Positions 617 to 14,128 of a stretch of 34,548 nucleotides of DNA are shown one piece after another. The first letter of the stretch is position 1, and the number at the start of each line of letters is the position of its first letter. Location: NCBI GenBank assembly GCA_945874455.1, contig CAMCHO010000029.1:1-34548 (forward strand), in the 5' to 3' direction. Below the pieces are notes generated by a model. That model had not been told where the DNA came from and ran no database searches. It saw only the letters and a list, made by a program, of their open reading frames with translations. The translations under genes and the position numbers were made by a program. The DNA comes from Opitutus sp. GAS368 (lineage in GTDB: Bacteria; Verrucomicrobiota; Verrucomicrobiia; Opitutales; Opitutaceae).

Positions 617-1924
617 CTACCCGAACAACGCCGCAATGGGTTTCCCGCCGTCGGTGATCGGCACGGGGCGCGAGGCGTTGACGAGGTCCTTCGCGGGATT
701 GATGCCGAGGGCGGCGTAGACCGTGGCGTGGAAATCAGGCACGGAGACCGAGTGCTCAACCGGTTTTCCGGCCAGTGCGTCGGTCACGCCGTAAGCCCCG
801 CGATGGCGCAGTCCGCCGCCGGCGAGTACGAGACTGAACGCCGACGATTGGTGTCCGCGACCGCCACCACTGTCGAATTGCCCCGGGCGACCAAACTCCG
901 TGCCCATCACAATGAGCGTTTTGTCGAGCAGCCGTTTTTCCTGAAGATCAGAAATCAACGCGGAGAGCGCGTTGTCGAGCTCGCGAATGAGGATGTGCTG
1001 GTTGAGCTGGCCAGCGTTGTGGGTGTCCCAGCCGGCGCCGTTGATGAAATTCAGATTGTGCGAGACCTCGATGAAGCGGACGCCGGCCTGCACCAACCGA
1101 CGCGCGAGGAGGCAGCGCTGGCCGAACTCGCCGCCGTAGCGTTGGCGGACCGACGCGGTCTCCTCGCCGAGTTTGAAGTGACGCATGAATCCAGGGCCAG
1201 CGAGGCGGAGGGCTTCGCGTTGCACTTCGGCGTAATCGGTCAACACCGCGTCGTCAGCCGCGCGTTGTTGCAAGGGCGCGAGGAGGCGTTGCCGGCCGGC
1301 CACGCGCGCCGGATCGATGCCCTCGGGCGGCATGAACCCAGCGGGGCCGGACTCGGTGTCGACGAGGTAAATGTAGCCATGTTTCGCTCCCAAGAATCCG
1401 GGGCCGCGACTCACGCTCGGGTAGCCAATAAGCAGATACGGGGGCAACTCGCTGCTCACGGCGCCGCGTTCGTGCGCGATGATCGAGCCCATCGACGGAT
1501 AAATCGTGCTCCCGCTCACGGGCCGGCCGGTGTGGACGTAGTTGGTCGCGAGGGCGTGCTCGATCCCGAGCGTGTGGTTCACGGTGCGCACGGCGGTCAC
1601 GTGCTCGGCAAGACGGGCGGTTTGCGCCAAATGCTCGGTGTAGCGCACGCCCGGCACAGCGGTGTCGATCAGGTCGTAATCCGTGCCCGGGAGCGACGGC
1701 GCGGACTTGGAGTTGCCGCGTTTTTTCGGATCGAAGGTATCGATCTGCGACATACCGCCCCCGAGCCAAATAAAAATGCAGTGCTCCGCTTTTCCGCGCG
1801 GCGCGGAGACGACGGTGCTCGGAGAAGCCGCGGCGGGAGACGAGGAGGCTCCGAACGCTCGGGGGAGCGTGGTGGCGGCGGTGGCGAGGGCGGCGGACTG
1901 GGCGAGGAAGGTACGACGATTCAT
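617..1924 (-). CDS. DUF1501 domain-containing protein, Tat-exported
   Basis: The 435-residue product matches the DUF1501 family, whose fold is related to alkaline phosphatase/sulfatase enzymes; the substrate is unknown. The start at 1924 gives [10 protein letters not shown], a twin-arginine signal (RRTFL) with a hydrophobic stretch and an AFGA cleavage region near residues 23-26. An upstream in-frame ATG at 1969 would only add residues ahead of this signal. Family landmarks are [15 protein letters not shown] at about 53-67, [13 protein letters not shown] in the middle, and TEFGRPGQ plus [17 protein letters not shown] near the C-terminus. The gene follows the DUF1549/DUF1553 cytochrome gene by 120 bases on the same strand. 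This pairing is typical of Planctomycetota and Verrucomicrobiota, where the two are thought to act together outside the cytoplasmic membrane. Export fits both partners. Confidence 0.93.
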
Positions 1925-1954
1925 GGGGTGAGGGCGAAAACAGCCGGAGTTTTT

Positions 1955-2038
1955 AACCACGGGTAACACGGATAAACACGGATAAAACTAAGGCACCGGA
2001 GATTCGGATTCGCGTAGCTTCGCGTGATCCGTGGTCAA
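1955..2038. repeat. Dispersed palindromic element (ACACGGAT type)
   Basis: The gap between the two DUF genes holds repeats of ACACGGATAA on one side and the complementary GATCCGTGGTCAA on the other, with outer ends TTAACCACGG and CCGTGGTCAA forming an inverted repeat. The same kind of element, with inverted halves, lies at 11061-11132. It codes for nothing sensible. Similar ATCCGTG-rich elements are common between genes in Verrucomicrobiota and Planctomycetota, as I recall. Confidence 0.6.
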
Positions 2039-2044
2039 GTGTTC

Positions 2045-5017
2045 TCATAGAATATGCGTCCACTCGGGCGCGTTAACGAGGGCCCACGTGACGTCTTCGA
2101 GTCGGCGACGCCAGTCCGGCTCGAGGCGGGACGTCGCCGGATCGCCGCGGCGGGCATCCGCTTCCTCTGCGAGACGCCACGAATTGGCTTCGCTCTTCAT
2201 ATGGTTGGACCACGCGACATATTTCGGGCGGACGCGGGGCGGCGTGGGCGCCGCGCCGGATGAGGCGGCGAACGCAGGAGCGACGCGTTTGTCGTAACCG
2301 GGACGGAGGAGGTCCGTGTAGATCTTGCGCTCCATCGCGGTGGGAGTCCGCGTGAACATGCGGAGGAACAGACGCTCCACGAGTGCGTCGAGCGATTGGC
2401 TTTCGAGCGCGAGACGCGTGAGGCCGTGATCGTCGCTGAGGCGCGTGAGCCACGTGGTCATCGTGCCGTTGGAGAGGAGCGCGGGCTGGAGGACGTTGGC
2501 GGCGACCTCGCGCACGCCGCTGCTCGCGTCGGGGCGGGCACCGCGCCACCCGAAGACCTCCAGCACCTCGGCGACCGCTTGGATGCGCGGTAACATAAGG
2601 CTTGGGCGGTCGCGCTCGTTCGACGTCGAGGCGAGCATCCATGCGCGGCTCGCACGTCCGAGGTCGAGCGCGTTTTCGATCGTGCGCACACTGTCGATAT
2701 CGAGGTTCACGGGCTCGACGGCGAACGGTTTTCCGGTCGCGACAAAAAGCGAATCGACGAATTGCTCGGCCGCGATGCGCCGCGGCGCGGGTGCGGTGAA
2801 CAGCGGGCCGGTCGCGGCGAGCGAGCGATCGGTCGAGCGCTGGTAGGCGTGGGAGTTCAGGATGACGCGGGCGAGGGCTTTGGAATCGTAGCCGGAGCGG
2901 ACCAACTCGCGCGCGAGCCAGCGGAGCAACTCGGGGTGCGACGGCTGGCTCTTTTCCCAATCGCCCACGGTCTCGACGAGGCCTCGATCCATGAAGCGTT
3001 GCCAGATGCGGTTGGCCATGACTTGGGCGAATCGCTCGTTCTGCGGTGCGGTCACGAGCGCAGCGAGGCGGTCGCGCGGATCGCCGGGGCGTTCGGCGAG
3101 CGGGGCGGCACCACCCTCGTCGCAGAATTCCGCGAACGACCACGCGGGCGCCACCGCCGTGCCGGCCGGCAGCGTGGACTCGATGAGCGGTTCGCGTCCG
3201 CCGAGCCGGAGGTGATCCATGGCGACCGTGCTCGTGACCGGCAGCTTGATGGCTTTCGCGCCGAGCATCGCGGCGAGCTGCATGAGGTCTTGCTGCTTCG
3301 ACGCGTGCGTCGGTGCGTCGTGACAACGCGCACACTTCATTTCCACTCCGAGAAACGCCGAGCTGACAATGATGCCCTTGGCGGCCATCGGGACGTCATT
3401 TTGCGAGGCGACGCTGAACCCGGCGGGTCCGCCGAAGCGCTCGCTGCCCTCTTGGCGGATGAGTTCGGTGACGAAGAGATCGAGCGGCTTGTTGTCGAGG
3501 AGCGATTCATAGATCCACCAGCGAAACGGGCCCGTGTTGTTGAGCGTGGGATTGATGAGATTCGGATTCTCCGCGAGCACATCGAGCCAATAGGGCATCC
3601 ACTGGTCGGCCCAGCGCGGATCAGCGAGGAGCCGGTCGATCGTGGCGGTGCGGCGCGAAATGGCCGGCAGCGCGCGGAAGGCCGCGATCTCGGACTCGCT
3701 CGGCACGACGCCCGCGGTATCGAGGGTGACGCGACGGAGAAACGTGAGGTCGTCGGTGAGCGGCGTGAGCGCGAAACTCGTGACCGGAAAAGCGGGCCAC
3801 GCCGCGCCTTCCTTAATCCACGTCTTGAGAACGTCGATTTCCTTCGTCGGCAACGGATCGCCCTTCGCGGGCATCACTTCCTCGGAGTCCGTGCTGGTGA
3901 TGCGCTGGATGATCGGGCTCGTCTCCGGGTGGCCGGCGATGAGCGCCGGACCATCGACCTTACCTCCCTTGAGCGCGGCCGCGAGGGAGTCGAGGCGCAG
4001 ACCGCCTTTGACCTTCGCACCTTGGTGGCAGCTGAAGCAGCGCGTCTCGAGAATGGGCTTCACGTCGCGATAGAAATCGACGCTGCCTTTTTTCAACGGC
4101 GCGTATTCCGCCGCGACGGTGGCGATGCGGTCGGCGATGAAATGGTCGATGACGTTCGTCGCCGGGAAGCCGGCGCGGAGCGACGGCACCGCGACCTCGG
4201 GCGTGGACGCGAGCCACGCGTTGGCCGCCGCGCGACGCGACGCCCAATACGCAGAAGACTCAGCGCGCTTCGCGGCGCGGGCCGCGGTGTTGACGGTGGC
4301 GAGGTGCGCGCGGCGCTCCGCCTCGTAGGCGGCCCAGCCCGCATCGGTGTAGGGGACGGTGCGCTCGCTAGGCGAGAGCAGCCACCACGCCGTGCTGCCG
4401 GCCGGCGAAAACGCGACGATGGTTTCGCCCAGTTCGGGGCGGAAGGGTTTTTTCCCCTTGGGCTCGATGCCGCCGATCACGGTTTCAAGAACGACGGTGA
4501 CGGGCGCTCCGGTGAATTCGAACGCGCCCCACTCCTCCCGATTGCCGGGCGTGGCGAAGCGGAATTCGGGGCCGAGGTTAAGATAGGTTTCCTGCGGCTC
4601 GACGGGGAGCTCGCCAGCGTTGCCGACGGCGAAGGCGGCGGGCTGGGCAAAGGGTGTTTCGAGGATTTTCTTCCCGTCGATCAACAGCCGCGCCGTGCCG
4701 CGCGAGCGTAGGAGCAGCCGATGTTTCCCTGCGGGCAAGCGCACCTCCGCCGTCGCGCGGAAGAGGGTGGGAAACGCCCGATCAGCCCGCACGCCGGTCG
4801 CTACATATTTTTGCGGCAACTCGAAAAATCCGAACACCTCGTCGGTAAACGTCTCCGCGATCTTCGTTTCTCCGGGCCAAGGGGCCGTGGCGATTGGGCC
4901 GGCAGTAGGTTCGCGAAGCTCCACGTGCACGCCTGCCGGTGCGCCAAAAGCTGACACGCCAAGCGTCAGCGCGAAGGCCACACAGAGTAAAAGGCTAGTA
5001 ACACGAGGGGACGACAT
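2045..5017 (-). CDS. Exported PSCyt1-DUF1549-DUF1553 cytochrome c protein
   Basis: A 990-residue secreted protein with a signal peptide (residues 1-26, ending SAFGA). Residues about 45-185 look like a PA14-type beta-sandwich (LLLRSRGTARLLIDGKKILE), which often binds carbohydrate. A planctomycete-type cytochrome c domain follows, with heme motif CFSCH at 327-331 and a candidate axial Met in VMPAKGDPL at about 382. DUF1549 comes next, with a second CxxCH (CARCH, 562-566), which is usual in this family. DUF1553 closes the protein (NRIWQRFMDRGLVETVGDWE). Such proteins are typical of Planctomycetota and Verrucomicrobiota; a redox role in polysaccharide breakdown has been proposed but not settled. 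It is the first gene of a probable two-gene unit with DUF1501 downstream. The start at 5017 is the only one giving a clean signal peptide. Confidence 0.93.
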   Translation of the reverse strand: MSSPRVTSLLLCVAFALTLGVSAFGAPAGVHVELREPTAGPIATAPWPGETKIAETFTDEVFGFFELPQKYVATGVRADRAFPTLFRATAEVRLPAGKHRLLLRSRGTARLLIDGKKILETPFAQPAAFAVGNAGELPVEPQETYLNLGPEFRFATPGNREEWGAFEFTGAPVTVVLETVIGGIEPKGKKPFRPELGETIVAFSPAGSTAWWLLSPSERTVPYTDAGWAAYEAERRAHLATVNTAARAAKRAESSAYWASRRAAANAWLASTPEVAVPSLRAGFPATNVIDHFIADRIATVAAEYAPLKKGSVDFYRDVKPILETRCFSCHQGAKVKGGLRLDSLAAALKGGKVDGPALIAGHPETSPIIQRITSTDSEEVMPAKGDPLPTKEIDVLKTWIKEGAAWPAFPVTSFALTPLTDDLTFLRRVTLDTAGVVPSESEIAAFRALPAISRRTATIDRLLADPRWADQWMPYWLDVLAENPNLINPTLNNTGPFRWWIYESLLDNKPLDLFVTELIRQEGSERFGGPAGFSVASQNDVPMAAKGIIVSSAFLGVEMKCARCHDAPTHASKQQDLMQLAAMLGAKAIKLPVTSTVAMDHLRLGGREPLIESTLPAGTAVAPAWSFAEFCDEGGAAPLAERPGDPRDRLAALVTAPQNERFAQVMANRIWQRFMDRGLVETVGDWEKSQPSHPELLRWLARELVRSGYDSKALARVILNSHAYQRSTDRSLAATGPLFTAPAPRRIAAEQFVDSLFVATGKPFAVEPVNLDIDSVRTIENALDLGRASRAWMLASTSNERDRPSLMLPRIQAVAEVLEVFGWRGARPDASSGVREVAANVLQPALLSNGTMTTWLTRLSDDHGLTRLALESQSLDALVERLFLRMFTRTPTAMERKIYTDLLRPGYDKRVAPAFAASSGAAPTPPRVRPKYVAWSNHMKSEANSWRLAEEADARRGDPATSRLEPDWRRRLEDVTWALVNAPEWTHIL

Positions 5018-5139
5018 GAGCAGGGTTGTGCCGATGAGAATGTGGAACGCGCGCGTTTACACGCTCAACGGCATCCCACTTTCGTGCAGCGATACCCGCT
5101 ATCCTGAATAAATCGCACCCGAATAATCAAGGAATGAGT

Positions 5140-5206
5140 CACCGAGGACACCGCGCCGCCGCAAAGAGCACAGGCAGACAAGGTGTTTGGCGCCGCGTCC
5201 TCCGTG
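5140..5206. repeat. Inverted repeat in the 5018-5337 divergent gap
   Basis: Arms CACCGAGGAC (5140-5149) and GTCCTCCGTG (5197-5206) pair with one mismatch; the flanks add GC pairs. It resembles the other palindromic mini-elements of the window in size and position. The rest of the 320-base gap between the divergent cytochrome and NHL genes should hold both promoters, but I see no convincing -35/-10 pair. Confidence 0.45.
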
Positions 5207-5337
5207 GCGGAGCTCCCGAGATTTGGGTGGCAAAAAAGTCTGCTCGCACGCGCGCTCGATGGAGGCGTCGCACCGTTTTCCCCTGACGTCGCCCTCGCTC
5301 TTCGATTCGCTGCGACCGTCCGACTTCCCTCCCCATC

Positions 5338-6387
5338 ATGAAATCCTCTCCTACCCTGCGGTTGCTCTCCGCTCTCCTGTTCGCGCCGGCCTTGCACGCC
5401 GAAAAAATCGTCCTCGTCGCCGGCGGCACCGAAGATCGCATCGGTCTTCCCGCCTTGCAGACAAAATTAAAAGAGCCGTTCGGTGTGGATTTCGACCGGG
5501 CGGGAAATCTCTTCATCGTCGAAATGGCCGCGGGTAACCGCCTGCTGCGCGTCGACGCGCAGGGCACGCTCACCCATGTCGCCGGCCTGCCCACCGCCGG
5601 CGACACCGGCGACGGCGGCGCAGCGCTCTCCGCGCAGTTCAACGGCCCACACAACCTCGCCGTTCTGCCCAACGGTAACGTCCTCATCTCCGATACGTGG
5701 AACGGCCGCGTGCGCCAGGTTGACGTCACCTCCGCTCGCGTTTCGACGCTGCCCGGCTACGGTGTGCCCGCGAAGCAAGGGAAGGCCAGCGGCCCCTATT
5801 GCATCGCCCTCGATTTCACCGGCACGCAGCTCTTCATCGCCGATTTGCGCCGTGTGCAGGCGCTCGATCTCAAAACGGGGAAACTCCGCCTTATCGCCGG
5901 AAATGGTGAAAAAGGCGTCCCCGTCGACGGCGCCCGCGCCACCGACGCGCCGCTCGTCGACCCGCGCGCCGCGGCCGCAGATCGGCGCGGCAATGTCTAC
6001 ATCCTCGAGCGCAACGGCCACGCCCTGCGTGTGGTCACGCCCGATGGAAAAATCCGCACCGTCGTCAATGCCTCGGGAGCAAAAGGCGCAACCGGCGACG
6101 GCGGCGACGCCTTGCTCGCCACAATGAGCGGCCCGAAACACCTCTGCATCGACCTCGACGACAACGTCCTCATTGCCGACGCCGAAAACCATCTCATCCG
6201 CAAATACGTGCCCGCCACGGGGAAAATTCTCCGCGTCGCCGGCACCGGGAAAAAAGGCACCGCCGGCGTCGGTGGCCCGCCCGAGCAATGCGAACTTGCC
6301 CGACCCCACGGGGTGACCGTGCGCGCCGACGGCACGCTGTTCATCACCGACAGTTACAATGATCGGATACTGAAGATCGTGCGGTGA
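5338..6387 (+). CDS. Secreted NHL-repeat beta-propeller protein
   Basis: The 349-residue product starts with a signal peptide (MKSSPTLRLLSALLFAPALHA, cleavage about residue 21). It then shows repeated NHL-type blades: GVDFDRAGNLFIVE, NLAVLPNGNVLISDTWNGRVRQVD, AAADRRGNVYILERNGHALRVV, HLCIDLDDNVLIADAENHLIRKY and GVTVRADGTLFITDSYNDRILKI. The blades are linked by glycine-rich TGDGGDAL-type loops. This pattern is a six-bladed propeller of the kind used for protein or ligand binding, or occasionally for lyase or lactonase activity. No catalytic residues can be assigned. It is transcribed away from the DUF1553/DUF1501 pair; NHL proteins often sit near such clusters in Verrucomicrobiota, so a shared extracytoplasmic role is possible but inferred. 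Confidence 0.9.
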   Translation: MKSSPTLRLLSALLFAPALHAEKIVLVAGGTEDRIGLPALQTKLKEPFGVDFDRAGNLFIVEMAAGNRLLRVDAQGTLTHVAGLPTAGDTGDGGAALSAQFNGPHNLAVLPNGNVLISDTWNGRVRQVDVTSARVSTLPGYGVPAKQGKASGPYCIALDFTGTQLFIADLRRVQALDLKTGKLRLIAGNGEKGVPVDGARATDAPLVDPRAAAADRRGNVYILERNGHALRVVTPDGKIRTVVNASGAKGATGDGGDALLATMSGPKHLCIDLDDNVLIADAENHLIRKYVPATGKILRVAGTGKKGTAGVGGPPEQCELARPHGVTVRADGTLFITDSYNDRILKIVR

Positions 6388-6400
6388 GCTGATTCAATGC

Positions 6401-6720
6401 TCCGTCGTGGCATGGGCTTTCCAGCCCATGGCTCGGGGATCATTTTCGAGCGTCCCTTCCTCCCGGCAAAACCCTCACGGGCCGGAAAGCCCGTGCCACT
6501 TCGATCCTCCGTCGTGGCATGGGCTTTCCAGCCCATGGCTCGGGGATCATTTTCGAGCGTCCCTTCCTCCCAGCAAAACCCTCACGGGCTGGAAAGCCCG
6601 TGCCACTTCAATCCTCCGTCGTGGCATGGGCTTTCCAGCCCATGGCTCGGGGATCATTTTCGGCGTCCCTTCCTCCCGGCAAAACCCTCACGGGCTGGAA
6701 AGCCCGTGCCACTTCGATCC
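6401..6720. repeat. REP/BIME array, three 107-base units
   Basis: Three near-identical units start at 6401, 6508 and 6615 (107, 107 and 106 bases). Each holds two hairpins in opposite orientation. Hairpin A is CATGGGCTTTCCAGCCCATG, at 6411-6430, 6518-6537 and 6625-6644. Hairpin B is CACGGGCTGGAAAGCCCGTG, at 6476-6495 (one base different), 6583-6602 and 6689-6708. Both are bordered by GTGG, or CCAC on the other strand, in the place where REP guide tetranucleotides sit. Two inverted REPs per unit is the layout of a bacterial interspersed mosaic element. The array lies at the 3' end of the RAYT gene. Confidence 0.93.
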
Positions 6721-7406
6721 TCCAAGTCAGCGACGAGGCGCGCTTCCTCGCTCGCCCACACCCACGGCCAGTCGCGCAAACCCGCTTTCGTCGGATTCTC
6801 CCACACGTACCGCACCGCATGGGCGAAATCCGCCGCGTCCCGGATCACGTGGTCGTAGGGCTCGGCCTTCCAGAACGCCCCCGACCGCCCCAGCAGCCGG
6901 TTTGCCGCCCGCGCGGAATACCCCTTCCACGATTGAATGACGTCCGGGAGCGTCTGCGGTGCGAGCGGGCGCACCACTGCATGGACGTGGTTGGGCATCA
7001 CGCACCACGCCGCGAGCAGGTGACGCTCGCCGTCGAAATACCGCAGCGCATCGGCCATAAGCGATGCGATCTCCGGCTGGCGCAACCAACACGTACCGTG
7101 ACCCGCGTCGAGCTGACACTCGATCTTCTCGGCGAAGAGTGCGCGGAGGCGTTCTTCGTGCGCTGGAGTCAGTGTGCCCTTAGCCGACTGCTCTGCCACG
7201 AGAGCGGCCCGCTCCTCGCGCCACGCCATGACGACGGCTTGAGGTAAAGAATCGGCGAGCCGGAAAACAACCGCATAGGTCGCGCCGTCGAGCGTCCAGT
7301 GCGGAAGATTGGCTCCCTGCCGAATCTGCACGTCATGTGAAAGCAGCGATTTTTCCACCGCAGAAAAATGACCTGCGCGAGGAATCCCGTGAAGGAAAAA
7401 CGCCAC
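6654..7406 (-). CDS. REP-associated tyrosine transposase (RAYT)
   Basis: A Y1-type HUH nuclease of the RAYT (TnpA-REP) family, single-strand enzymes that cut and join REP hairpins. Landmarks in order are NLPHWTLDGATYAVVFRLADSLP near the N-terminus, MPNHVHAVVR with the metal-binding HVH pair, WKGYSA with a candidate nucleophilic tyrosine about 20 residues later, FWKAEPYDHVIRD, and RYVWENPTKAGL. The frame is open up to 7523, but there it reads through REP DNA, so the start must lie nearer the gene. GTG codons at 7406, 7358 and 7328 are candidates; 7406 is the longest one outside the repeats. The last 20 or so residues (SGTGFPAREGFAGRKGRRK) are encoded by the flanking REP unit. REP arrays on both sides match how RAYTs occur: single copy, domesticated, with REPs as substrate. 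Confidence 0.88.
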   Translation of the reverse strand: MAFFLHGIPRAGHFSAVEKSLLSHDVQIRQGANLPHWTLDGATYAVVFRLADSLPQAVVMAWREERAALVAEQSAKGTLTPAHEERLRALFAEKIECQLDAGHGTCWLRQPEIASLMADALRYFDGERHLLAAWCVMPNHVHAVVRPLAPQTLPDVIQSWKGYSARAANRLLGRSGAFWKAEPYDHVIRDAADFAHAVRYVWENPTKAGLRDWPWVWASEEARLVADLEDRSGTGFPAREGFAGRKGRRK

Positions 7407-7418
7407 ACCGTGGCTTTT

Positions 7419-7662
7419 TCCGTCGTGGCATGGGCTTTCCAGCCCATGAGCCCAGTTTCCGTCCTCCGTCGTGGCATGGGCTTTCCAGCCCATGAGTCCG
7501 GTTTCCATCTTCCGTCGTGGCATGGGCTTTCCAGCCCATGAGTCCGGTCTCCATCCTCCGTCGTGGCATGGGCTTTCCAGCCCATGGCTCGGGGATCATT
7601 TTCGAGCCTTCCTCCCCCCAGCAAAGCCATCACGGGCCGAAAAAACCGCGCCACTTCAATCC
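7419..7662. repeat. REP array upstream of RAYT, 46-base spacing
   Basis: Four hairpin cores CATGGGCTTTCCAGCCCATG occur at 7429-7448, 7475-7494, 7521-7540 and 7567-7586, spaced exactly 46 bases. The first three units carry only hairpin A plus a short linker (GAGTCCGGTTTCCAT or close variants). The fourth continues like the 107-base unit of the downstream array, but its hairpin B is decayed (CACGGGCCGAAAAAACCG). So one flank has the double-hairpin layout and the other mainly the single-hairpin layout. Confidence 0.92.
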
Positions 7663-7975
7663 CATGATCGAGCCGCAGGTAAAGCGGCAGGTAGTCGGCC
7701 TCGCGCAGCAGCACGGGCAGGATAAAATAACCGGGGTCGTCTCGGCGAGAAAGGTTGCGCCCGCGCGAGGCCGGGTGGGTCAAGCTACGAGGCGGTCAGC
7801 GCGCCGCCCGGAAGCGATCAATGCTGGGCCCCGTTTCCGCCCTGCTCCACGTTCGGAGTTCCGCCTTTCGCGGTTCCGACCCTGCTCGTAACCGCCCGTG
7901 ACGGACTTAAGGGCGGAACTTCGAACCCAAAATCATCTTCGCGATCCGGCCCGAAATTATGCCCACCCTGCCGCC
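7663..7975. other. Gap without a clear gene
   Basis: Between the REP array and the phosphoesterase gene I see no gene with a start and normal length. A short minus-strand stretch at about 7660-7783 could encode RRDDPGYFILPVLLREAD and a little more before it runs into the repeats. It may be the remains of a gene cut by REP spread, but I cannot name a family. The rest, about 7790-7970, shows no repeat or terminator. Confidence 0.35.
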
Positions 7976-10516
7976 TCACTTTTCGCCATCATCCTTCGTG
8001 TGCGTTTTGTAGAAGGCGGCACGCACGGGGGCGGGCATCGGGGAATCCGCGCCACGCACACTGCGCCAGATGATTTCGTTGAGCTGGATATCGTCCGCTT
8101 TGTCGGGTTCGGAAAAATCCATCTTCCGCGATTCGCGTTCGCCCCAGGCGAGCTTGGCATTGAGCTCGTTTACATTCACCTGCGCGGGACGGGCGGTGTA
8201 AGGCGTCGGATCGGACCGGTCGCCAAAACAGGCCCACATCGGCATCGCCGCGGCGTCGAACTGCGACATCGGCTGCAGGCCTAAAATCAACTCCATCGTG
8301 CGGAGCATACTCGTCGTCGAATACAGCGTGGAATCCACGGTGCGGCGCTTCGTCCAGGAACTGATCACGAAGCCGGGCATGCGGTGCGCGTCCACGTGGT
8401 CGGGTCCATTTTGCGCGTCGTCCTCGAGGACGAAAATCGCCGTGTCGGCCCAGAATTTAGATTTACTCACGGCTTCGACGATGCGGCCGAGGGCCTCATC
8501 ATTGTCAGCGACCATCGCCGTCGGGGTGGGTTTGCCGGCCACCGTGCCCACCGTGTGATCGTTCCCGAGACGGAGCACCTGCAAGCGCGGCATGCCGCCT
8601 TCGCGCTCGAAGCGACGGATCTCCGAAGCGAACCGCTCGGCACGCTTGGTATCGGGATAGTCCATGTCCCACGCGCGATAGAGCGGGTCGATGTGGCCGA
8701 CGAGAATCGGCAGCGAAGGCGCGGACAGGTCCGGGCCGGTTTTAGGCGTGGAGCAATATTCGCCGTAGCTGCGGTAGCTCACGCCGGCCTCGGCCGCACG
8801 GTTCCAAAGATAGCCGTTGGCGGGCGTCGCGATCGGGAATCGCCCCTCGGAGGGGTAGTCGTATTTTTTCTTCGCGTTGTGCCCGTAGCTCAACGGCCAG
8901 TGGCGTTCGACGAAGTCCGTCGCATAGGCACCCATGCTCCACTCGTGGCCATCGGCGCTCACCTCACCATCGGCGTAGAGATTGTCGAGCAGCACAAATT
9001 CGCGGGCGAGCGCGTGGGCGTTGGGCGTGACCTTTTCCGGAAAGATACACAGCCGAGAATCACCTTTGCCCTCGAGCATGTCGCCGAAAACTTGGTCGTA
9101 GGTCCGATTTTCCCGGATGATGTAGATCACATTTTTAATCGGCGAAGGATCGCCGACCGTGGCCGGGACCGGGCTGCCGGCGGGCCGAGCCGCCAAACCG
9201 CGCGGCGACGCAGCGGCATCGAGGGGGCTGCACGTGTAGGCTGTCTTCGACCAGGCACCGAATTGCTCGGCGCGTTTTTTCGCCACCGGCAAGGCGATCA
9301 AGGCGACCGTGCCCTGAAAGAGTCCACCAATGTATTCCTGCAAATTGCGGGGCGCCGGCGACCCGGGAAACGGGCCGCGCGGATTGGCCGCGGAGGTCGT
9401 GCCCTTGCCGTTGGCGACGAAGAGCGTCTGGCCATCCGCTGACACCCGCACGCTGGTGGGAAACCAACCGACAGGGATGAAACCGAGCGACTTCGCCTTA
9501 CCTGTTTTTTCCACGTCAAAGATGGCGACGTTATTGTTGGTCGCGTTGGCTACGAAGAGGAGTTCGCCGTCGGGGGAGAGCGCGAGGCTGTTGGGCATCG
9601 AGCCGGGCGGGGAATTGGGAAAGAGCGACGCGGTGAGTTTTTCGCCGACGCGTCCGGTGGCGGTGTCGACGATGCTGACCGTATTGTGATTCGCCTCCGC
9701 GACAAACAAGCGCCCGTCCGGCGCGAGGAGCATCTCGTTCGGGTGCGAACCGACCGGCCACCGCGCCGTCTCGGCCCCCGTCGCCGCATCGAGGACCACC
9801 ACGGCGTTCGCGCCCCAGAGGCTCACGTAGACGCGACCCTTTTTCTCGTCGACGACGCAGGTGTAGGGAAAGGGCGCGAGACTGGCCGCGGCGGGCGCGA
9901 CGCGCGCCTCGTCGTGCACCATGGTGCTGCCGCCCTGAGGCGGGGCGAGTTGCTGCGTCCAGAGCGCGCGACCATCCGAAGTGGAGATTTTTTCAACGCG
10001 CTGGCCCCAAGTCTCCGCGACGTAGAGCGCTTGGCCGTCGGCCGAGGCCGCTAGGCCCGCCGGCATGCCGCGCTCCTTAGCGTCACGCAGGCGTAGTTCG
10101 CGATGCTCGGAGAGGTAACCCTCCTTGAAAGCAAAGGCGTGAATCACCTCCGCCGCCGCGCCGCTAATGTAGAGTTGCCGTCCGTCCGGCGACCAGGTGA
10201 GCCCATAAAATGTCTCCTCCAACGCAACCTGCGAGACGAGCGCGCCCGTCTTGGCATCGAGGATACGGACCTCGTGTTGACCCCAACCGCTGTGCAGGAC
10301 GGCGGCAAACGCACCGGCTGGGTGCAGCGCGATGTTCACCGGAAAATCGCCCACCACAGTGTGCTTTCCCACCGGACGCAGCGACCACTGGTTGGGCAAC
10401 AGCACCGAGCCGTCACGCTGGAGGCCCGGAAACGTCACGGGAGACTTCGTCGCCGCGTAAGCTGCAGGAAAAAACAGCGCCGCGATCGCGAACGCACGTG
10501 TCAGAGAGATTCTCAT
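7976..10516 (-). CDS. YncE-like beta-propeller/phosphoesterase fusion, exported
   Basis: The 846-residue product starts at 10516 (MRISLTRAFAIAALFFPAAYA, a good signal peptide); an in-frame ATG 17 codons upstream lacks this layout. The N-terminal half is a YVTN/YncE-type propeller with repeats such as GLTWSPDGRQLYISG, GLAASADGQALYVAETWG, MLLAPDGRLFVAEANHNTVSIVD and SLALSPDGELLFVANATNNNVAIFD. The C-terminal half matches the phosphoesterase family PF04185 (phospholipase C/acid phosphatase-like): NVIYIIRENRTYDQVFGD at its start, then NLYADGEVSADGHEW, FVLEDDAQNGPDHVDAHR and STTSMLRTMELILGL. The Glu-Asn of the opening motif and the DDAQNGPDHVDAHR acids and histidines are the expected metal-binding residues. 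The substrate is unknown; a periplasmic or outer-surface phosphoester is likely. The gene stands 86 bases after the FKBP gene on the same strand. Confidence 0.92.
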   Translation of the reverse strand: MRISLTRAFAIAALFFPAAYAATKSPVTFPGLQRDGSVLLPNQWSLRPVGKHTVVGDFPVNIALHPAGAFAAVLHSGWGQHEVRILDAKTGALVSQVALEETFYGLTWSPDGRQLYISGAAAEVIHAFAFKEGYLSEHRELRLRDAKERGMPAGLAASADGQALYVAETWGQRVEKISTSDGRALWTQQLAPPQGGSTMVHDEARVAPAAASLAPFPYTCVVDEKKGRVYVSLWGANAVVVLDAATGAETARWPVGSHPNEMLLAPDGRLFVAEANHNTVSIVDTATGRVGEKLTASLFPNSPPGSMPNSLALSPDGELLFVANATNNNVAIFDVEKTGKAKSLGFIPVGWFPTSVRVSADGQTLFVANGKGTTSAANPRGPFPGSPAPRNLQEYIGGLFQGTVALIALPVAKKRAEQFGAWSKTAYTCSPLDAAASPRGLAARPAGSPVPATVGDPSPIKNVIYIIRENRTYDQVFGDMLEGKGDSRLCIFPEKVTPNAHALAREFVLLDNLYADGEVSADGHEWSMGAYATDFVERHWPLSYGHNAKKKYDYPSEGRFPIATPANGYLWNRAAEAGVSYRSYGEYCSTPKTGPDLSAPSLPILVGHIDPLYRAWDMDYPDTKRAERFASEIRRFEREGGMPRLQVLRLGNDHTVGTVAGKPTPTAMVADNDEALGRIVEAVSKSKFWADTAIFVLEDDAQNGPDHVDAHRMPGFVISSWTKRRTVDSTLYSTTSMLRTMELILGLQPMSQFDAAAMPMWACFGDRSDPTPYTARPAQVNVNELNAKLAWGERESRKMDFSEPDKADDIQLNEIIWRSVRGADSPMPAPVRAAFYKTHTKDDGEK

Positions 10517-10602
10517 ACCCGCCACCGTGGGCGTGATTTCTCGGGGCGGCGAGCACGCGCTCGCCAAAACAGCCGTCGGCGTGTTACGCGCCGGTTAAAT
10601 CG

Positions 10603-11067
10603 TCAGTCCCGCTTGATCTCGATCAACTCGATCTCGAACACGAGCGCGGCATTGCGGCCGATCTTCGGCGGTTGCCCGCGCGTGCCGTAAGCCAGCTCCG
10701 CCGGAATCACGACCAGACGTTTTTCGCCCAGTTTCATGAGAGGCAACACTTGATCCCAGCCTTGGATCACCTGCTCGCGCGCTACGCGAAAGGTAAAGGC
10801 TTTGTCCTTTTCGGTGGCTTGGTCGAAGACGGTGCCGTTGAGCAGACGGCCCACGTAGAGCACCGCCACCTTGTCACCGGCCTTCGGCATATCGCCACTG
10901 CCCGGCTGAAGGATAATATAGCGGATGCCGGTATTGGTCTTCTTGGCCTCGGGCCAGGATTTCTCCACAAATGCGAGCTCTTCGGGCGACAGTTTTTCCC
11001 GCTGGGCGTAGACGGCGAGCGGCATCAGCACAGATAACAGACCCAGACAGAGGAGGAGTTTGATCAC
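10603..11067 (-). CDS. Exported FKBP-type peptidyl-prolyl isomerase
   Basis: A single FKBP domain fills the C-terminal two thirds: GDKVAVLYVGRLLNGTVFDQ, VIQGWDQVLPLMKLGEKRLVVIPAELAYG and ALVFEIELIEI are the usual strand and active-site segments. It should speed proline isomerisation in proteins outside the cytoplasm. The start is uncertain. The GTG at 11067 yields a textbook signal peptide (VIKLLLCLGLLSVLMPLAVYAQ, first residue Met in the protein; 154 residues). An ATG at 11112 would add 15 residues read from the ACACGGAT-type dispersed repeat and would leave only 30 bases to the divergent dehydrogenase start. I prefer 11067 for these reasons, although neither start has a good Shine-Dalgarno. 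The phosphoesterase gene lies downstream and may be co-transcribed. Confidence 0.88.
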   Translation of the reverse strand: MIKLLLCLGLLSVLMPLAVYAQREKLSPEELAFVEKSWPEAKKTNTGIRYIILQPGSGDMPKAGDKVAVLYVGRLLNGTVFDQATEKDKAFTFRVAREQVIQGWDQVLPLMKLGEKRLVVIPAELAYGTRGQPPKIGRNAALVFEIELIEIKRD

Positions 11068-11132
11068 AGATTTCACAGATAACACGGATAAGGCTTTTGC
11101 TATCCGTGCCATCCGTGTAATCGGTGGTCAAA
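11061..11132. repeat. Dispersed palindromic element, second copy
   Basis: The element has AACACGGATA on the left and TATCCGTGCCATCCGTGTAA on the right, so its halves are inverted, and it ends in GGTGGTCAA like the copy at 1955-2038. It fills the gap between the FKBP gene and the divergent dehydrogenase, so promoters for one or both genes probably lie in or beside it. Confidence 0.6.
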
Positions 11133-11142
11133 GAGTTTCTCC

Positions 11143-12114
11143 ATGACCAAACCCATCGTCGTGATCGTTTGCCCCAAGGAATTTCGTTTCACCGACACCG
11201 CCGCGACGGTCGAAACGCCGTTCCTCACGGACGTCGCCGACCTACGCACCGTGTGGTTGGATTTCAACGCACCGATACCCGAGGAGGTGCTCGCCGCCCA
11301 CGCCATTATCCTCTGGCACGGCCCCAAGCTTGAGGCCCCCATCCTCGCGCGGATGAAACACTGCCGCGCAATCATCCGCAACGGCGTGGGCTTCGACACC
11401 GTCGACATCGCCGCTGCCGCGCAGGCCGGAATCGCGGTCTGCAACGTACCCGACTACGGCACCGAGGAAGTCGCCGACCACGCTATCGCCCTCACCCTCG
11501 CGCTCTACCGCCAACTCTTCCCACTCGATGCGGAGGCCAAACGCCTCGGTTGGAAAATCGAAACCGCCGCCAAGATGCGCCGCCTGAGCACGCAGACCTT
11601 CGGCATTCTCGGCCTGGGCCGCATCGGCACCGCCGCCGCCCTGCGCGCAAAGGCGATGGGCTTTCGCACGATCTTTTTCGATCCCTACGTGCCGAGCGGC
11701 ACGCACAAAGCCATCGGCGTGGAGCGCGTCAGCTCCCTCGAAGAACTGCTGCGCCACGCCGATACGCTCTCCGTCCATTGCCCGCTCACCGCCGAGACGC
11801 GCGGCATCATCGGCGCGCAGGAAATTGCGCTGATGACACCCGGCTCCTACGTCGTGAACACCGCTCGCGGCGACATCGTGCAAAAAGCCCCCGTCTTCGC
11901 CGCGCTGCGCAGCGGCCACCTTGCTGGCGCCGGCCTCGATGTCGTCGAATCCGAGCCCCTCCGCACTGCCGAGGAAGCCGCCACGCCCAACCTGATCGTC
12001 ACTTGCCACGCCGCGTTTTGCTCCCCGGAGGGCATGATCGAAATGCGCAGTACCTCAGCGAAAATCGCCCGCGCGGCCGTGCTCGGTGAAGCGGTGTGGA
12101 ACCGGGTGAATTGA
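11143..12114 (+). CDS. D-2-hydroxyacid dehydrogenase, CtBP-like
   Basis: A 323-residue NAD-dependent dehydrogenase of the D-isomer-specific 2-hydroxyacid family (phosphoglycerate, glycerate and related substrates). The Rossmann motif GLGRIG is at 157-162, followed by an acidic residue (FFD, about 180) that suggests NAD rather than NADP. The catalytic set is visible: Arg242 in NTARGD, Glu271 in VESEP and His289 in CHAAF. VCNVPDYGTEEVADHAIAL at 99-117 is the sequence seen in the C-terminal-binding-protein branch, so many annotations would read 'C-terminal binding protein'. The exact substrate cannot be told from sequence. It is transcribed alone, away from the FKBP gene, with the palindromic element in between. 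Confidence 0.92.
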   Translation: MTKPIVVIVCPKEFRFTDTAATVETPFLTDVADLRTVWLDFNAPIPEEVLAAHAIILWHGPKLEAPILARMKHCRAIIRNGVGFDTVDIAAAAQAGIAVCNVPDYGTEEVADHAIALTLALYRQLFPLDAEAKRLGWKIETAAKMRRLSTQTFGILGLGRIGTAAALRAKAMGFRTIFFDPYVPSGTHKAIGVERVSSLEELLRHADTLSVHCPLTAETRGIIGAQEIALMTPGSYVVNTARGDIVQKAPVFAALRSGHLAGAGLDVVESEPLRTAEEAATPNLIVTCHAAFCSPEGMIEMRSTSAKIARAAVLGEAVWNRVN

Positions 12115-12263: not shown

Positions 12264-12287
12264 CACGGGCGGGAAAGCCCTTGCCAC
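12264..12287. repeat. Solitary diverged REP of the RAYT-linked family
   Basis: CACGGGCGGGAAAGCCCTTG followed by CCAC matches hairpin B of the REP units at 6401-6720 with two changes. It stands alone, 5 kb from the transposase, between the dehydrogenase and helicase genes. This shows that the palindrome is dispersed and not confined to the arrays. Confidence 0.65.
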
Positions 12288-13735: not shown

Positions 13736-14128
13736 TTAGTAACGGCGCTCGCCGCGATCGCGATCGCCACCGCGACCACCGCCGCCGCCGCCGCCGAAGC
13801 CGCGACCACCGCCGCCGCCGCCGCCGAAGCCGCGACCGCCGCCGCCGCCACCGAAGCCGCCGCCGCCGGAACGCTCTTCCTTCGGACGGGCTTCATTGAC
13901 GGTGAGTTGGCGACCACCGAGATCGGTGCCGTTAAGCTTTTCAGCCGCGGACTTGGCTTCGTCGCCAGTGCCCATGGTGACGAACGCGAAGCCACGGGGG
14001 CGACCGGTCATCTTGTCCATCGCGACGTAAACGTCGGTGACGGCGCCGAATTGACCGAAGGCCGAACGGAGTTCGTCTTCAGTGGTCTTAAAGGACAGAT
14101 TGCCGACGTATAGTTTGGAGTTGCTCAT
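13736..14128 (-). CDS. Glycine-rich RRM RNA-binding protein
   Basis: A 130-residue protein with one RNA recognition motif at about 5-82: RNP2 is LYVGNL and RNP1 is RGFAFVTM, with the two aromatic positions that stack on RNA. A linker (RPKEERS) leads to a tail of Gly with Arg and Phe (repeated RGFGGGGGG) ending in [10 protein letters not shown]. Small RRM-plus-RGG proteins like this occur in cyanobacteria and several other phyla, including Verrucomicrobiota, often as abundant and cold-induced RNA chaperones. The gene has a long untranslated leader on its upstream side and a strong terminator, so it is probably a single-gene, highly expressed unit. The helicase gene downstream suggests shared RNA work. 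Confidence 0.95.
13771..13857. repeat. 30-base tandem repeat coding the Gly-rich tail
   Basis: Two identical 30-base units at 13771-13800 and 13801-13830 and a 27-base variant at 13831-13857 encode [10 protein letters not shown]-type blocks of the RRM protein. Such a tract can change length by slippage. Confidence 0.85.

Follow-up and report, generated by a model that had tools for sequence, protein, structure and literature searches.

A candidate REPtron in an uncultured Opitutae genus: a REP-associated tyrosine transposase gene between two REP arrays of unlike layout

A gene for a domesticated transposase, a REP-associated tyrosine transposase (RAYT), lies between two REP arrays in the genome of Opitutus sp. 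GAS368, raising the question of whether gene and hairpins belong to one system and how the two arrays came to differ. The DNA analyzed here (the window, 34,548 nt) is one entire contig of an assembly of 333 contigs, and the exact copy numbers within the arrays therefore depend on the assembly. The coordinates of the features are collected in Table 1. A preliminary description of the locus had placed the gene between arrays of unlike layout, and this was recovered: three tandem 107-nt inverted pairs on its 3′ side, and three 46-nt singles followed by a decayed pair on its 5′ side.

Table 1. Features of the RAYT locus and a REP-like core elsewhere in the window
Feature	Coordinates	Strand	Basis or detail
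RAYT (REP-associated tyrosine transposase), 234 aa; start probable	6654..~7358	-	PF01797, NF047646, motifs, 4er8
3′-side array, three tandem 107-nt inverted REP pairs (REPIN layout, GTGG outside)	6393..6723		Tandem Repeats Finder: period 107, 3.1 copies, 96% matches
Double unit D1	6407..6499		+ core 6407-6430, - core 6476-6499
Double unit D2	6514..6606		+ core 6514-6537, - core 6583-6606
Double unit D3, one base shorter	6621..6712		+ core 6621-6644, - core 6689-6712
5′-side array, three single REPs, then + core of D4 (7563-7586)	7419..7586	+	Tandem Repeats Finder: period 46, 3.7 copies, 95% matches
Single REPs of the 5′ array	7425-7448, 7471-7494, 7517-7540	+	46-nt spacing
Double unit D4, second arm decayed (7631-7654)	7563..7654		GTGG foot kept, stem lost
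Solitary REP-like core elsewhere in window	12264..12287	-	3 mismatches vs + core

The locus holds seven + cores, with the letters GTGG-CATGGGC-TTTCCA-GCCCATG, and four − cores, three intact and one decayed. Those of the 107-nt units are of the type GTGGCACGGGC...GCCCGTG, and the feet of both cores point outward. GTGG had been reported at every core, and it was indeed found at the own 5′ foot of all 11, ten of which have also kept the stem. A single core is predicted to form a hairpin of 8 bp, with the GTGG left unpaired in front of it (fold z −4.3), and unit D2 to fold into one long hairpin (z −5.8), while the fold of D4 reaches a z of just −1.9. The reversed pattern, used as a control, had no match in the 5.07-Mb genome, indicating that the cores are not due to chance; a search of Rfam gave no match at the gathering threshold. 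The periods of 46 and 107 nt stood as first described, but their exactness did not, since D3 is a base shorter than D1 and D2. Units within an array are 91–99% alike (104/107, 103/104 and 102/104 for the pairwise comparisons among D1–D3), and the bases between the cores, the linkers, were copied along with them, which agrees with the local tandem expansion proposed earlier.

The RAYT frame is open from 6654 to 7523 on the − strand and runs into REPs at both ends: through the 5′ array on one side and, with its final ~19 codons, into D3 on the other. The stretch VEKSLLSHDVQIRQGA is common to the window RAYT and a 71%-identical homologue in genome G001, whereas the residues before it are not shared, so that the start likely lies at or near the GTG at 7358. 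The frame scored 25.8 bits with the Y1_Tnp model PF01797 (cut-off 23) and 70.6 bits (E 1.2e-19) with NF047646, the model for REP-associated tyrosine transposases, which is below that model's cut-off of 80, a naming threshold and not a biological feature. All 38 aligned homologues matched NF047646 at E ≤ 0.001 (best 5.6e-28), and 23 of them also matched an IS200 model. Residues N123-H124-V125-H126 (NHVH) and Y184, N188 and P189 of the YVxxNP motif are invariant in 38/38. The HUH motif and the tyrosine are intact, the catalytic role of Y184 being assigned by analogy. When the alignment profile was compared with solved structures, TnpA-REP of E. coli (4er8) came first (E 1.5e-8), aligned over profile positions 96–192 of 193, and the predicted fold (mean pLDDT 83) led Foldseek to the same structure (E 1.7e-7). 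Among solved structures, the protein is thus closer to TnpA-REP than to IS200 in sequence and in predicted fold.

The gene had also been called single-copy. This is valid for its own lineage, since the genome yields a single full-length match with more than 50% identity, but not genome-wide, because two more RAYT-like ORFs occur at 42% identity (contigs C58 and C166), with different hairpins nearby, and C114 carries a further Y1_Tnp ORF and C140 a weak one. With one copy of the gene, the several near-identical copies of a mobile IS200/IS605 unit are not seen. The RAYT-like gene on C166 (L029) has a C-terminus made of 15-nt tandem repeats (SATPRSATLGS...) and lies beside hairpins of another family. 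RAYTs of another lineage within the genus (L046, L047, L050 and L163) are accompanied by hairpins with a GGAG foot, not GTGG. Footed hairpins around these other RAYTs were located by an exact-stem scan, a scan by energy alone being too noisy.

The association between gene and hairpins was examined at 80 homologous loci from named genomes (the best 80 of 329), which belong to Verrucomicrobiota, Planctomycetota, Acidobacteriota, Lentisphaerota, Pseudomonadota and other phyla. Hairpin density was 8.2/kb up to 250 nt from the gene and 0.84/kb at distances above 1 kb, a roughly tenfold difference, and a GT[AG]G foot was present in 230 of 322 hairpins near the gene versus 51 of 183 far from it. Such footed hairpins occurred on both sides of the gene at 62 of the 77 loci with enough flank and at none of 142 control placements (at least one side: 72/77 versus 13/142), bearing out the earlier proposal of a RAYT with cognate REPs. 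The control tetramer GGTG was enriched too (51/322 near, 8/183 far), because it overlaps GGTGG. Since the flank hairpins had been pre-selected for pairing, covariation counts were replaced by a count that started from GTGG and involved no selection on pairing. By this count, a 7-bp stem came after GTGG in 159/607 cases near the gene and 28/1977 far from it, and after GTAG in 73/248 and 24/943; other tetramers were also enriched near the gene, at the far lower level of 1.3–4.7%, as against 26–29% for GTGG and GTAG. The 7-mers after stem-leading GTGGs near homologues were of 37 different kinds, a few of them probably due to chance, and the foot switches between GTGG and GTAG at least eight times on the homologue tree, a quick tree in which 39 of 78 inner branches are weak.

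REPs commonly lie between genes and are able to act on mRNA. The arrays here are located in the two gaps beside the RAYT gene, as they might if the hairpins were transcription terminators or mRNA-stabilising structures that had been amplified by slippage and stood next to a RAYT by coincidence. This is very improbable in view of the homologous loci, where hairpins are enriched at RAYTs in many phyla and the foot is near-constant while the stems vary but still pair; REP presence moreover follows the RAYT across genera, as shown below.

Cores were also present elsewhere in the genome, as had been anticipated: eight were counted beyond the locus when ≤3 mismatches were allowed, and two of these make up an inverted pair, so the REP system has spread little in this genome. 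Ten of its 18 cores thus sit at the RAYT gene; a looser pattern gave 14 cores outside the locus, some of them doubtful. Across 141 genomes, REPs were found in 23. The first search pattern, with a 4-nt loop, missed REPs with a 3-nt loop, and a second was therefore run on the same genomes and the tables combined, by which G032 went from 0 to 13 copies and G086 from 2 to 2 + 77. Neither pattern detects REPs with other stems, for example those next to the RAYTs of G044 and G038. A RAYT was counted as close at 227.9 bits and above, a limit set once the scores had been seen to drop from 227.9 to 180.8 bits. REPs were present in 9/9 genomes with a close RAYT and in 14/132 without one (p = 1.7e-8), and the same held outside the genus (7/7 versus 8/125, p = 5.5e-8). 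With identity ≥50% as the criterion and the first pattern, the picture was similar (8/11 versus 9/130). Inside the genus, however, REPs occurred in 2/2 genomes with a close RAYT and in 6/7 without (p = 1). The expectation that these REPs are found only together with the RAYT is accordingly upheld across the 141 genomes but fails within the genus, an outcome that the preliminary description had itself named as a refutation, and the six congeners speak against dependence on the RAYT.

These six congeners carry 6–20 REP copies each, or 1.07–2.99 per Mb, compared with 1.18 per Mb in the genome under study outside the RAYT contig; the seventh, G004, had no copy in the two-pattern search. The absence of a RAYT from the congeners is uncertain because their genomes are fragmented. 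Less fragmented assemblies gave similar cases: G011 (1 contig) has 14 REP copies and no RAYT match, and G053 (2 contigs) has 32 copies and RAYT-like genes at 40–42% identity, none of them close. REPs can thus outlive or outspread the RAYT. The two patterns gave 104 + 234 copies in G013.

Neighbouring REPs outside the RAYT contigs were compared in eight genomes of the genus, the present one included. The 15 neighbour pairs comprised ten with the feet outside, three direct and two with the feet inside; fewer than 0.01 neighbour pairs per genome are expected by chance. Three of the ten foot-outside pairs represent one orthologous pair, a REPIN found at a matching site in the present genome (G000:C121) and in G002:C168 and G003:C308, and hence inherited. 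The starts of the two cores were 40–41 nt apart in eight of the ten dispersed inverted pairs, as against 68–69 nt at the locus; the 107-nt unit was accordingly rejected as the dispersed form.

It is quite possible, at odds somewhat below even, that the dispersed copies are old, vertically inherited REPs of an earlier RAYT, with the present gene having either arrived later or survived, and recent REP activity confined to the arrays. The inherited REPIN fits this, as do the REP densities of the congeners, the concentration of cores at the gene and the occurrence of the RAYT at non-syntenic sites in two genomes (see below). It leaves the near-confinement of REPs to close-RAYT genomes outside the genus unexplained, and the fragmented genomes may hide a RAYT. 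Such a history is compatible with a RAYT and its cognate REPs forming one system, and is not opposed to it.

Tandem arrays of single REPs arise elsewhere too, as three tandem copies, 84 and 81 nt apart, lie at G001:C26:47075-47263 (L173), on a contig without a RAYT match. In three relatives, REPINs (L175, L179, L180 and L181) fall inside stretches that read in frame VARAFQPV...TGWKARAT; coding is unproven there since other frames are open as well. A check of open frames at dispersed REPs was not selective, many REP-crossing frames being open on both strands. Passages of PMC3733652 report intragenic REPs that code for 20–30 aa.

Relatives were also used to follow the history of the locus. The congener G008 shares the neighbouring NHL-repeat and phosphoesterase-domain genes in DNA that is 94–98% identical, and has ~100 nt where the window has positions 6399–7970, the RAYT and both arrays being absent. 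Genome G003 shares the phosphoesterase side and then, beyond ~500 nt absent from the window, the D4 unit. In that equivalent the second arm is intact, but in the first core the foot reads CAGG where D4 has GTGG, and one base pair is a T-G mismatch. Between the pair and the end of its contig lie 240 nt without a match in positions 1001–12000 of the window, and the single-REP array is therefore not beside the G003 pair; a search of the rest of this genome, which is 83% complete, gave no close RAYT. D1–D3 are nearly identical to one another, while D4 is about equally far from them (90–91 of 101–103) and from the G003 unit (90 of 99). A pair thus probably occupied the site before the tandem expansion, and the second arm of D4 decayed in its own lineage. 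A short block beside D4 (7656–7709 and L155) is common to G003, where it continues into what appears by eye to be a broken NTPase gene.

The 71%-identical RAYT of G001 lies elsewhere, between genes that appear by eye to encode an aldo/keto reductase and a DNA-3-methyladenine glycosylase. On contig C33 of the present genome (G000), the sequences flanking that site lie ~440 nt apart without a RAYT, and the RAYT is thus non-syntenic between the two genomes, whether by movement, transfer or rearrangement; the reductase of the G001 site had no match in the present genome at E ≤ 1e-20. REP pairs stand on both sides of the gene in both genomes, and the singles are on different sides.

The unlike arrays had first been taken to show single REPs turning into double or mosaic elements, with the transposase processing both forms. 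Singles and pairs beside this one gene do share the core, the foot and a [CT]TCCGTC leader, and the two forms are mixed at 23 of the 64 homologous loci (of the 80) whose two flanks both carry footed hairpins within 400 nt. Against this, G003 has a pair at the orthologous site where the single-REP array is lacking, the singles change sides between G000 and G001 while pairs stand on both sides in each, and D4 is a pair in decay, the opposite direction; singlets are likewise read as remnants of doublets in the relevant passages of PMC3116915. This course of events is therefore quite unlikely, and singles as precursors of pairs were rejected on the orthologous pair of G003 and the presence of pairs in G000, G001 and G003 alike. 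Layouts differ between left and right at 34 of the same 64 loci, so the architecture seen here is common, and the idea that its asymmetry is special was rejected. Unequal layouts being common, and G003 having an orthologous pair and G001 pairs on either side of the gene, the paired form looks ancestral, and the single form derived or of separate origin. The locus alone does not show how mosaics form.

We therefore read the locus, with a probability of about 0.86, as a REPtron: a RAYT of an Opitutae lineage with its cognate REP hairpins (GTGG foot, ~8-bp stem), in which the pair is probably older and the arrays most likely arose by later local duplication. Against this reading stand the occurrence of REPs without the RAYT within the genus and in G011 and G053, the small number of dispersed cores, the NF047646 score below its cut-off together with the IS200 matches of 23 homologues, the enrichment of GGTG and other tetramers near the gene, and the altered foot and mismatch of the G003 pair. 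By analogy with known systems, we infer that the RAYT is active: the HUH/tyrosine protein would bind the REP hairpin as single-stranded DNA, read the GTGG foot as a guide, and cut and rejoin beside it, occasionally depositing REP pairs elsewhere. In the order of events suggested by the comparisons above, the REP pair (REPIN) was probably the older form at the locus. The 107-nt array most likely formed afterwards by local duplication of a pair, and the 46-nt array by that of a single, in each case through slippage or unequal exchange that included the linkers.

A more elaborate possibility, to which we give little credence, is that in this clade a REP triad, that is, an inverted pair preceded by an extra direct REP, also spreads, and that a RAYT bracketed by triads moves as a composite. 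The gene occupies unrelated sites in two congeners, and triads flank it on both sides in G086 and on one side in G001. Among the places listed for the first 1.31 Mb of G013:C1 (L039, L186), 45 REP clusters include nine pairs and nine triads (seven ‘++-’ and two ‘+--’), and none of these 45 is foot-inside (150-nt linkage, two loop types). If the triad reading were true, the SSS-D array of the window would be a triad with an expanded leading REP.

As a REPtron, the locus adds one more case to a well-described system and is not a new kind. The REPtrons of E. coli, Stenotrophomonas and Marinomonas (4er8; sections of PMC8266576) likewise combine an HUH/Tyr gene with flanking hairpins that have a GTAG-type foot, and their REPs occur in inverted pairs. 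The window RAYT differs from these in belonging to another subfamily and having a long region ahead of the part aligned to 4er8, and in its relatives, most of which come from PVC, Acidobacteriota and other phyla; its REPs also have few dispersed copies. For Marinomonas, the same sections describe REPs that are concentrated at the gene, which is read as a recent arrival with local multiplication, and cleavage of a GTGG version of the foot at CC and, with lower efficiency, at CA. Closer in taxonomy is GTAG-20 of Opitutus terrae, also from Verrucomicrobia and with mostly GTGG feet, likened here by its description in passages of PMC3733652; the REP families of that species include dimers, clusters, intragenic copies and GTGG-footed REPs, and trimers are described in that paper too. 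In P. fluorescens SBW25, according to portions of PMC3116915, near-identical REPINs form tandem arrays that include the flanks, as in the window, and a REPIN cluster lies beside each of three RAYTs. SBW25 differs in its hundreds of dispersed REPIN copies, and its tandem arrays of REPs (not REPINs) alternate GI and GIII types, with no tie to RAYT flanks described in those portions. IS200/IS605 elements share with the window RAYT the Y1 transposase fold, subterminal hairpins and guide tetranucleotides, whereas the window system has one gene copy and inverted REP pairs. A literature search for Opitut* together with ‘REP-associated tyrosine transposase’ returned no paper, a weak result given its partial coverage.

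The locus extends REPtrons to an uncultured genus of Opitutae, as a clean example with 80 comparable loci in several phyla. Because their GT[AG]G feet are combined with stems that change freely while remaining paired, guide recognition versus stem recognition becomes testable across natural variants. Elsewhere in the window, positions 13770–13868 hold a CCG-rich tandem repeat with a period of 30 or 3.
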